NCBI GenBank assembly: GCA_027405735.1
Contig: JAPEHQ010000002.1
Span: forward strand, 2,294,001-2,358,000
Direction: 5' to 3'
DNA from: Mucor racemosus
Taxonomy: Eukaryota > Mucoromycota > Mucoromycetes > Mucorales > Mucoraceae
Length of the DNA: 64,000 nucleotides
How positions within the stretch are numbered: position 1 is the first letter of the stretch; each line of letters starts with the position of its first letter. Of the stretch, positions 28,851-37,767 are shown piece by piece. The position numbers and the translations under genes are program-made. The notes beneath the pieces are model-generated. The model had not been told where the DNA came from. It did not search any database and saw nothing but the letters and a program-made list of their open reading frames with translations.

Positions 28851-29984
28851 AACGCTACATAATACACAGCAACGTAGAGCTTACCACTACTTATCATATC
28901 AAACTGTACCATAATCGTAACCAAGGAGTGTACGCAGACCTGTGAACGCAACATATAGTTATTAATATCTGTCTGACAATAAAAGAATTGATACCAAAAT
29001 ATAAATGAACTGATCTAACATTAACCAAATAAAAATTGACCTAAAATTGATTGTAAAAATTGAACAGCTAAATGAGGTAACAATTTTTTTTATTCACAAG
29101 ATAGATTCAACTCGAAACTACTCTGCATTCTTTGTTTCAGCAAAAAATACTGATTTTTCATCAAGATAATCAAAATAATACTTCATATTACAGCTTAAAA
29201 CCCAATAATAACGGGATTCCAAAATTTATTTGAAAAAATGAACAAAAAATGATTCAAAAAACAAAATTGTTTAAATGTTCATCAACTGCAAAGTAAGTAG
29301 ATCCAGCGTATTAAATAATTTTTATACAGTTTTAAATTCTGCATCCATCCAAATAAAATTTAAAAAAATGTTTCACGTAAAATTTTGCCTAAAATGCAAT
29401 TGAAATTTTAAAGGTTTTTTGAAGATGTTATGTCAATACTCATCCTATGTCTCACATCCAAGGTCACAGTCTATAATTAGTGTTACAGTAAATCAATGTG
29501 GATCATTGACTTACATCATATTCTTAGATAGTAAAACCCTAGTAATAGTTATAATTAATGTATATAAATATATCCAAAGGATGTATTGTTAATAAAAGTG
29601 TAATATTCTGGCAAGATTATTTATATAGACTCTTTTGACATTTCAGAAGATACAGAACACTTTTTATAAACATATTTTAAATTTAAATAATGAAAATAAT
29701 GTGTAGAAAAATTATCTATTGATCGAGCTACTATTTAACCTTTTAGCTACATTTTTCGTAGAGAAAACAAGATTTTTATCCAAATTTTTTTGAATTTCAG
29801 AATTTGAAATGAGGGTATACAAGGGAAAAATCGAGGTTAGACATGATGGTATCTTTTTGTACACATTTTTGAGGATATCTCCATGAAAAATCAATATTTT
29901 GAAAAAAACTAAATTGGATCTGAGAGAACTTAACGAGCTTGATGACATAAATGTAAAAAGAACGTTGCTCAATTTAACTAATAT

Positions 29985-30560
29985 TTTGAAACCTACTATA
30001 GAAATGTCAAAAAAATGAAAAAAAAATAAAAGTGCTCAGAATTTTTTTATATTAAAATATGTTATAGAGTATTTTAAAACAAGCAAGTTTTATTATTAAA
30101 AAATGTTAGTATAGCTTAATTTTTTCTAGAGATATGAAGCCTCAAAGCTTTCAATCCATTAGCAGTGAAATACGCGTAAAAAAACTGAAACATTAGCACT
30201 GAAAAATTAATACCAACTACAAAAAATAGGATATTTCCGGACACTTGTTTTTGAATTAAAGCTGAACATCTCAGGTACATTGTCATATAATTTTTTCTTG
30301 GTATTATTTAGTGAAAACAAAAAGTAGAACAGGGATGAAAAATGAGACCCAGTTTTCAAGGAAAAAGCAGTAAATTTTACGCGTTTTTGAGTCTTTCATG
30401 AAATATAAAATAGATTTAGGGATAAGTAGAATAATGCGACAAATTAATGAGTATTTAGCAGTGTCTAAAGTACATCCTGAAAAATGGTTAGTATGAGTAT
30501 AATTATAGAAAATGCGGCACCCTGCGATTTTGGAGATTTGGCTTTCTTAAATTCAACTTT
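29985..30560 (+). repeat. Dispersed AT-rich repeat, copy 2
   Basis: It matches 5960-6540 in the same orientation over about 550 bp with scattered substitutions and small indels. Best-conserved motifs are ATAGGATATTTCCGGA and GCTGAACATCTCAGGTACA. It has no coding capacity. Confidence 0.75.
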
Positions 30561-31020: not shown

Positions 31021-33091
31021 CTATGATAATCTTTTTGAATAGGTGGTAATGAAATCAACCATCCCAGGCCTTAATTTCTCAGCCTGTGTTAAAACAATTG
31101 TAAAATCAGACATATGATATAGAGCAAGTGCATTCATTATTCGAGTAGTCAGATCGTTGTCAGTTGGTTGACATAATATAACGGGTCTTGATGAAAAAGC
31201 TGTGTGAGTGAGATGATTAAAAATGTGCAACATAATTTCAATACTTACGTTTCATCCTCTACAAATTTTATCATAGCTAAAGCCCTTTTAATCAGCGATC
31301 TTCTCCATTGTCTAACAAAAGACTCTCTCATTCGTGTTGGTATTTTACGAGTTTCATCTAGTAAAGTTTGCACCATGGGAGCAATACAATCTGTTTTTTC
31401 AAATACATTTTGACGTTTACTCCAATCGTTCATATTATTTACAGTTGCGTTATTGTCATTGATGAAATTGACAAAGTTTTCTTCCAATTTGAGTGATGAA
31501 GCAGTGTGATATTGCGATTTTAATTCACCATAGCTATTGAATAACGGTGTTTTTCGTACAATCAATCGAGTCATATCCACAAGTGTAGTTGGTACAGTTG
31601 AATCTAGAACTGCAATTTCTACTTTTGTATCCATCTCTTCAGCATCTTGTATTAATAAACCTTGAAGGTATAAATCAGGCATATAATGATGGTGCTTTCT
31701 TGCATGGCTTGACCTACTTCTTTCTTCGAGAGATAAGAATAAAGCAAGTGTATTTATCACCATATTCATACTTGTTAGAGTATTACCAACTAATAAGGTT
31801 GAGCCAAATGTTTGCAAATGCGATGTGATTACTCTGTATGATAGTCAGTTAAGATTGTACAATAAATTTTCAACATGTGTATTTTACAAACTTGGCAATA
31901 AACGGAGATTCTAACATTTGCCTTGATTCATGATCTAAAATCGTGTGGCTCGTCTATTTGTATTTAGTTAATATTTATGCAATTATCAATCAATAGTACA
32001 TATTTAGGTACCTTGACACAATCAATTGGCAAAGAAACAGATTCCAAATCCATAACAGATTTTACAAATGGCATTAGATGATTTACTTTGAAATATTTCA
32101 AAGCCATCAACCAAGACTATCAAAGAAAGTAGATATATAGATTAGATATGATAGACTATCTTATCAAAGCAACACAGTATATTTACGACGGCATGACGTT
32201 TATAGACTTTGCGTAACTGTACTAATGGTTCAACCAGCTGTATTGGTATACGATCACACAAAACTTGGAAATACTGAGAGAAATTTCTTAAATACCGCAC
32301 AGGAACCACTAACACTAGTGCGCACAAAGATTCCAAAGTAGGATCATTAAATAAAAATGCAGTACAAATTATTGCTTGACGATGTAATACAATCCATTTA
32401 GGTTCTACGCCCTTCAATGTACGTCCCATTTCCCCGTTTAAAACTTGTCTTCCAATCATCATTTGTAACTTTTCTTCTAACGGCTCAACCGACCATATTT
32501 TTTCTACCTTGGGTCCTACAAGATTAGACCATTGAATCAACATGGCTGCCGAGAAAAACGATGATTCGAATAATTTTAGTTCAGCTAAACTGGCAGTACT
32601 CGACCCCTTTTTTATAGATTTCTTTGAATTTGTTGTAGTTGCTAAAGAGAATAAATCGGTGGGTTAATTAGACAACGAATACATGCAAAAGACTGTTAAT
32701 TACCATTTGCAGCATCTTGAAGCGCTACTATAGCTTCAGAGGGACCTTTTACAATGGGAGGTGGTAACATTAATTCTGCAGACACGGGTGTTGTATTCTC
32801 AGCAAATTGAGGGGAAGGCAATGGTGAAGCCATGTTTGAATGAGCTTCAAAAGCAGGTGATCTTATATGATGATGGTGGTGATGATGTGATTGTTTTCTT
32901 TGTATATCACTGGTAGTTTCTTCTTCAGTTGCTGTAGTAGTTGCTGGAGAAGGATCTAGATTATCATTATTGCTAGTTGTTGAACCTGTCACAACAGCAG
33001 TTGTTGTGATTTCCAATGTTTGTATGGCTGTTGTTGAAGCTGTGGCCTTTGACTTTGTTAGACGAGTACGTTGAGGTGCTTGGTCAGTCAT
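31021..33091 (-). CDS. C9orf72-type DENN-module protein
   Basis: Six exons on the minus strand: 33091-32704, 32641-32187, 32116-32012, 31953-31892, 31833-31249, 31186-31021; 586 residues. About 150 N-terminal residues are low-complexity (Thr/Ser-rich, a run of seven His). The rest aligns along its length with C9orf72. LVGPKVEKIW (about 170-179) and VLNGEMGR correspond to the longin/uDENN start. SHLQTFGSTLLVG, LYLQGLLIQD, MIKFVEDET and AEKLRPGMVDF correspond to cDENN/dDENN landmarks. In animals C9orf72 works with SMCR8 and WDR41 as a GTPase-activating complex and in autophagy and lysosome control. Here a role in small-GTPase regulation is inference. Two splice sites are non-typical (GTTTGT donor of intron 4, TCAAG acceptor of intron 5) but are forced by frame and alignment. 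Confidence 0.88.
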
Positions 33092-33535: not shown

Positions 33536-35818
<2,283 letters not shown>

Positions 35819-37767
35819 TAAAATTTAAATGAAAAAAAGAAAAACGGAATCTGCAAGTTTTTTTTTTATTTTTTATTATTATTTTGACTAATTGAGCTAC
35901 GCTTGCTAAAAATTGGATAAGGTTTTGATGGTATGATGTATTCATTGTGTCACATGAAAAGCAGGATGTCTGTCATTGCACTAATTAAAAGCATAAATAA
36001 GCTTGCTTTTTATATTATCACCAATAGCTAATTATTACTTTGATTGGCAAGATCTTGCGTTTTGAAATATATGAGTATACCTGGTCAGTATCAGGCAATA
36101 TTATAATTCAATTACCTAGTTTAGCAGTTGCTTGCATGAATAGCACGTTTGAAAGAAATAATATTAGTTCCACAACGATTTTTTATTGGGGGGTTTTTTT
36201 TTTGGAAAAATTACTTACACAAACATATGCTCAATTATAAAAGAATGATATTTTAAAAAATGTATAAACTGCTAAAGCTATCAATCCAAATGAGCAATAA
36301 TCAGCAGCTTGTTAACCCGATGATTTTTCACATGAAAATGTGAATATTTTGTACTCTATCTCTTATTTCTTAGAAGGTTATATATTATTATTATATAATG
36401 TCTTTAGTTTCCATGAGTTCTGGATATGAGTTATACTATAACTTGAATGAAGCTTTCTGTTATTTCATATGTTACTGAGTGCATTTGAATTTAGGCAGTG
36501 TTTCGAATAGAAATATTCATCTTTAATGTTTAAATAGTTTTAACATTCTTTAATTAAACTAAAAAAAAAACAATTTAAAATTAATTTCATATTTTTCAAC
36601 ATATGGAAAATAGTTTTACATTTTTTAATTTTGCATTTTTTTATTGCAGTTATTGGTTTAAAGCATCTCTTTCGAAGGATACATAGTTTTCAGAAGAAAG
36701 AAGGCGGGGCTTGAATACGATTTGAAAAGGGAGCTTTCATTTTTGACGAAACCCATTTTTTGGAATTTCAAAAGTTTCTTTTTCAAAATTGACAACATAT
36801 CATATATTTAGTCACCATCTCTACATTAATAAAGTCTATATGAATTTTTTTTCTGAATCTAATGGTATAGCTTTTATGTGCCTTCTAGTATAATTTCATC
36901 CTCCAGATCGAAAAACTTGAAATTCAGTTTTTCGTAAAAAACGTTGCAATTCAAGTATACAATTGTGTAACAAACATTTGGAGATCATGAGAATTTTAAT
37001 TAGTTACATTTTGAGTACTTACTCGCGAAAATATTTTGATTTTTCGTGGAGATATCGCGAATATTCAAAATTTTCGAATTTTGGACGACCAAGTATAAGG
37101 GGAAAATGGTCGATTTTGATGAGAAAAAAAAGCTCCTTTTTTTTTACAAAAATGTATAGGTATGCATTCATATGATCAAAAGAACATGATTTGGCTTAGA
37201 AAGTAAGGTCCAAAAGCTATTATATCTCAAGTTATCGCCTATTTAATGTCAAATGTGTAACATTGGCGCTATTTGACATGTATCAGCTGAAAATCAGTGC
37301 AAATACGTTTGAAAAGGAAATAATCGGATTGAGGAGCATCGAAACAGTTAATTAAAAGCATAATTTGGCATCACTTTATTGAAAATTGTAAATAGTAAGG
37401 TTGGAAACCTTCAAAAGGTAAATGTTTGCCAATTAAGCTCAGAATTCGTTACTTATGGAATTTTTGTATTAATATGGTAAAGAATTGGTGCTGCAACATA
37501 ATTTTAGAAGAGTTCTACGTAAATATTAGACATTTAAATACACAATGCAAATTCTAAATGTTATAGAAACGGAAAGAATATATAATTCAATGGTAAAAAT
37601 ACTTTAGTGCTATATTACATTGTAAAAAACGTATACATAAAATGTAAGATCTATATTATATTAATTAGGAAATCTCAACCCATCTGCGCATACATGAATT
37701 TGGAGTAAGATCTAATATTCAATAGGTTAGTAAATATGAATCCTTGCATGCTATCCTTCTTCTTTTT
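35819..37767. other. Intergenic, 1.9 kb, AT-rich
   Basis: It holds the promoter of the PFK-2 gene and the 3' side of a GT15 gene. About 36650-37500 has the same degenerate repeat texture as 17.1-17.7 kb and 27-30 kb. Open frames at 36040-36240 and 36963-37175 show no coding bias. Confidence 0.5.

Follow-up and report, generated by a model that had tools for sequence, protein, structure and literature searches.

The window analysed here, a stretch of 64,000 nucleotides of the Mucor racemosus genome, carries a gene which, judged by its sequence, is an orthologue of C9orf72, present in single copy as far as found. C9orf72 is the gene behind the commonest inherited form of amyotrophic lateral sclerosis, and to our knowledge it has been studied almost wholly in animals. 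The occurrence of C9orf72 in this fungal lineage is already known (Zhang et al.), and the gene in the window is an ordinary orthologue. Added here are a gene for the partner protein SMCR8 with its catalytic arginine, the result that WDR41 was not recognised, and a conserved N-terminal tail.

The full product matched the C9orf72-like family PF15019 with 183.8 bits (cut-off 27), and at E<=1 Pfam gave no other family. Exons 2 and 5 each exceeded the cut-off on their own frames (49.3 and 107.6 bits), so the match holds however the exons are joined; exons 3 and 6, with their frames scanned singly, gave no Pfam family. When the product was compared with PDB sequences, neither FLCN, FNIP or NPRL nor any other DENN protein matched at E<=1. 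Folds were compared using the predicted model of the orthologue P0002 from M. circinelloides, which is 92% identical to the window protein. The closest solved structure was C9orf72, over the full longin-DENN-dDENN length; FNIP2 ranked well below, and the likeness to DENND1A/B and DENND10 was weaker. Identity with human C9orf72 (PF15019; PDB 6lt0, 7mge, 7o2w) was 24% in the structural alignment. Thus the C9orf72-type identity proposed by an earlier, sequence-only reading is upheld by the family profile, the PDB sequence search and the predicted orthologue fold, and neither profile nor PDB sequences placed FLCN, FNIP, NPRL2/3 or another DENN protein first. A scan of the genome with PF15019 gave one gene of C9orf72 type.

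The gene lies on the minus strand (33091-31021), and its six exons join into 1761 nucleotides encoding 586 residues and a stop. The coordinates, exon number and length given by the sequence-only reading agree with the joined model, and its landmarks (LVGPKVEKIW, AEKLRPGMVDF and seven histidines at residues 69-75) are found in the product. All five introns (58-70 nt) are bounded by GT-AG, so the two atypical splice sites that it had assumed are not needed and do not stand. The exons are as follows.

32704..33091, minus strand: exon 1, start codon and N-terminal extension (residues 1-129 and the first base of codon 130); gene model, with an N-terminus matching the annotated Mucor orthologues P0001 and P0002
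32187..32641, minus strand: exon 2, with the longin (uDENN) domain beginning near residue 154; PF15019 at 49.3 bits on its own frame
32012..32116, minus strand: exon 3, end of the longin and linker to DENN; gene model
31892..31953, minus strand: exon 4, whose donor GTTTGT preserves the frame into exon 5; product agrees with orthologues
31249..31833, minus strand: exon 5, central DENN plus the greater part of dDENN; PF15019 at 107.6 bits on its own frame
31021..31186, minus strand: exon 6, last part of dDENN (AEKLRPGMVDF) with the stop codon; gene model and PDB sequence alignment

When residues 150-586 were used to search the protein collection, 63 proteins matched: 29 from Mucorales, 2 from Umbelopsis, 27 from Mortierellales and 5 from animals. 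The matches were grouped by source name, with genera assigned to their orders, except for the nameless P0035 and P0037, which were placed in Mortierellales by sequence. Over the same residues the nearest annotated orthologues are those of M. bainieri (P0001, 587 aa, 93% identity) and M. circinelloides (P0002, 585 aa, 92%), both of which open with the same N-terminus as the window protein, and the Rhizopus microsporus protein (P0007) is 63% identical. The three share its N-terminal blocks and show only species-level differences. Several of the Mucoromycota orthologues are already named C9orf72-like in public records. The lists of C9orf72 and SMCR8 homologues both include Mucorales, Umbelopsis and Mortierellales; the searches scored word-sharing candidates (in two of them, the 7988 and 7983 sharing most words), and non-listing beyond Mucoromycota does not mean absence. 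Passages of Levine et al. (2013; PMC3570213) describe C9orf72 as missing from most fungi. A literature search, with most subscription papers outside its reach, found no paper pairing C9orf72 with Mucor or SMCR8 with Mortierella. In that search C9orf72 and Rhizopus occurred together only in PMC3521125, as did the combination of SMCR8, folliculin, phylogenetic and fungal; PMC5822839 held no word beginning with 'fung'.

The human SMCR8 sequence gave a single match in the M. racemosus genome at E<=10 (contig C24, 45% identity, E 2.3e-6), using a search method for which animal C9orf72 was run as positive control. The gene model at this place (L009:3607-7186) has ten exons, all bounded by GT-AG, and encodes 1006 aa. 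When its first 740 residues were compared with PDB sequences, every match at E<=0.01 was an SMCR8 entry (best 1.4e-29), and the genome's PF11704 gene matched folliculin only (1.6e-38). In a longin tree of 2 FLCN and 12 SMCR8 sequences, FLCN stood apart from SMCR8 with support of 100/99. The genes for FLCN, FNIP and NPR2 occupy loci of their own, separate from C9orf72. Both SMCR8 and FLCN, which the sequence-only reading had named as genes to look for, are therefore present, and the finding of SMCR8, FLCN, FNIP and NPR2 in one genome strengthens its proposal that an ancestral autophagy/GTPase module was kept; the autophagy part of that proposal stays conjectural. PF11704 failed as a detector of SMCR8: the genome scan yielded FLCN only, because the first 740 residues of Mucor SMCR8 reach 11.6 bits, below the cut-off of 23.3.

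These loci bear on the view that the window gene belongs instead to the FLCN/FNIP/NPR group, or that its model fuses separate genes into a chimera. The longin fold is indeed common to the whole group, but FLCN, FNIP and NPR2 sit elsewhere, C9orf72 is the only Pfam match, the profile, PDB and fold comparisons all contradict membership, and annotated orthologues show the same continuous product. We regard this view as extremely improbable. The FNIP/Lst4 subunit of the FLCN complex nevertheless has the longin-DENN fold of C9orf72, and it partners an arginine-bearing subunit as C9orf72 does with SMCR8.

Two features of the partner genes may be recorded. The SMCR8 gene carries a long acidic, Ser-rich insert (about residues 740-965) before the last helices, and the predicted local distance difference test score (pLDDT) of the matching part of P0064 is <50. 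The folliculin gene (C6:2005114-2005539) has a first large exon frame with long low-complexity inserts, including a glutamine run, between the longin pieces, and it retains an arginine at the catalytic place.

FLCN and SMCR8 are separate genes in the fungus, which puts their split at or before the divergence of animals and fungi. This narrows the date of 'early metazoan or pre-metazoan' given in passages of PMC3570213.

Parts of PMC8213707 identify Arg147 of SMCR8 as the finger in the human ARF1 complex and report that the C9orf72 double mutant W33G/D34K almost abolished activity. The ARG motif holding the catalytic arginine was found in 48 of 52 SMCR8 rows (51 search matches and the gene found here), and the other four are gene models without that region. 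Among the 64 C9orf72 rows (63 search matches and the window protein), the equivalent of Trp33 is Trp in all 62 that span it. In the window protein its codon is placed as follows.

32529..32531, minus strand: Trp167 codon, equivalent to human C9orf72 Trp33 (ARF1 contact) by PDB sequence alignment; Trp in 62/62 spanning rows

The position of human Asp34 is Ser in 57/57 spanning fungal rows, whereas it is Asp in 5/5 animals. Both sets of rows include close relatives, and the counts are therefore not independent events. On this sequence evidence the catalytic side is retained, and the C9orf72 contact is retained only partly.

We think it rather probable that the two proteins form a two-subunit C9orf72-SMCR8 complex that lacks WDR41, bears a fungal docking tail and acts as a GTPase-activating protein (GAP), its substrate probably being an Arf-family GTPase. 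The heterodimer, the GAP activity, the Arf target, the function of the tail and a role in nutrient response or at the vacuole would all be by analogy. The fungal longin-DENN-dDENN protein would most likely pair with SMCR8, whose gene lies elsewhere in the genome, and a small GTPase, likeliest Arf, with Rab or Rag possible, would sit in a cradle made by the longins of the two. The longin face of C9orf72, including the conserved tryptophan, may hold the GTPase while the catalytic arginine of SMCR8, R171 in this species, reaches in and speeds GTP hydrolysis; FLCN-FNIP would be a parallel, Rag-directed complex.

Two other activities have to be weighed against a GAP for Arf. The pair may act, as a GAP or as an effector, mainly on a Rab (Rab8/Rab11-like) or on vacuolar Rag GTPases. 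Passages of PMC8213707 report that the human complex also acts on RAB8A, needing at least about ten-fold more complex than for ARF1, and the replacement of Asp34 by Ser in the fungal rows points the same way; however, the arginine finger and the tryptophan contact of the ARF1 complex are retained, and we consider a Rab or Rag as main target unlikely. It was first proposed from homology that C9orf72 is a DENN-type guanine nucleotide exchange factor for a Rab. The DENN module prediction (in passages of PMC3521125 and PMC3570213) and the weaker fold similarity to DENND1A/B and DENND10 are consistent with this, but we give it little credence.

WDR41, also named by the sequence-only reading, was not recognised in the genome by human sequence search, PF25178 profile search or frame scans, which a very divergent copy might escape. 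With the human protein as query, 57 WD40 matches were listed at E<=1 (best E 3.3e-5), all within residues 19-204. The PF25178 profile, which has 440 positions, listed 64 matches at E<=0.01, none reaching outside positions 3-216; the first WDR41 repeats are matched each time, which is what canonical WD40 repeats would be expected to give. Taken together with their neighbours, 13 of the 64 rows, lying in nine frames, pass the cut-off of PF25178. Eight of the nine frames were scanned: WDR41 scored 47.5-78.3 bits, and in each frame many other propeller families scored higher. Six of the nine have an F-box domain, either inside the frame or a short way upstream. Four further loci were read, two of which were scanned. 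By sequence likeness, WD40 loci seen here are putatively TAF5-, LIS1-, Notchless- and WDR26-like. Two similar loci (L024 and L027) look from their frames like paralogous TAF5-type WD40 genes.

According to parts of PMC8336837, WDR41 was absent when the human C9orf72-SMCR8 structure was determined, and the human complex requires it for its lysosome location. The fungus shares with the human C9orf72-SMCR8-WDR41 Arf-GAP complex the C9orf72 and SMCR8 genes and the catalytic arginine; it differs in that WDR41 was not recognised and in its N-terminal tail. To reach the vacuole or other membranes, the fungal complex would therefore need a route other than WDR41, perhaps the conserved tail.

This tail, an extension of about 150 residues relative to human C9orf72, is mostly low complexity and is predicted to be disordered in P0002 (pLDDT mostly <50), with a short, low-confidence helix at residues 118-130 as the sole exception. 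The sequence-only reading, which saw a low-complexity N-terminus with seven histidines, was right in this, but three recurring blocks (B1, B2 and B3) are conserved inside it.

32984..33067, minus strand: block B1, residues 9-36; above shuffles in 26/29 other Mucorales rows
32867..32887, minus strand: seven-His run, residues 69-75, within block B2; gene model and row alignment
32705..32752, minus strand: block B3, predicted short helix GPSEAIVALQDAAN, residues 114-129; motif S[ED]A[IMV].AL, upstream of the longin

The core motif of B1, LE[IV]T[TM][TK]A[VI], occurs in 26 of 30 Mucorales, counting the window protein, in 1 of 2 Umbelopsis, and in none of the 27 Mortierellales or the 5 animals. By alignment, the 28-residue block clearly outscores shuffles in 26 of the remaining 29 Mucorales rows; the three without it (P0005, P0008 and P0012) are gene models with a short N-terminus. 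The likeness of B1 exceeds that of the longin core in 20 of the 26 rows (for example Halteromyces 25/28 vs 69%, Cunninghamella 26/28 vs 68%, Apophysomyces 24/28 vs 74%) and falls below it in six (P0014, P0019, P0022, P0023, P0026 and P0054; for example Fennellomyces 17/28 vs 69%, Hesseltinella 11/28 vs 66%). Residues 1-58, which include B1, match one place in the genome. B2 contains the histidine run, flanked by RK.S and (R/K)SP. The SEAxxAL-type motif of B3 is present in 30/30 Mucorales and 2/2 Umbelopsis rows. A likeness seen by eye in Mortierellales (GAEAGRKALLALQSVAAEE) reached z of only 1.0-2.0 against shuffles in the nine rows tested, and B3 is therefore not claimed there. The tail perhaps serves in docking or targeting. 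The broader proposal, that Mucoromycota have a two-subunit C9orf72-SMCR8 GAP lacking WDR41, that membrane or partner targeting has moved to the N-terminal tail of C9orf72, and that FLCN and SMCR8 were separate before animals and fungi parted, is put forward tentatively, at a little under even chances.

Just downstream of the C9orf72 gene (window 29720-30560) lies a dispersed high-copy repeat of about 820 bp. It gave 3097 first-look candidates in the 53.2-Mb genome; 40 of these were scored, and the 39 places other than the window had 86-90% identity. The neighbouring gene (window 33536-35824, minus strand) looks like a 6-phosphofructo-2-kinase/fructose-2,6-bisphosphatase, with PF01591 on 34849-35154; its second activity and its extent were read from frames only.

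With a single C9orf72 and a single recognisable SMCR8, and with WDR41 not recognised, this fungus is a simple setting in which to study the function of the core pair: which GTPase the pair acts on, and how much hangs on WDR41. It may give a pared-down version of the human C9orf72 complex for study.
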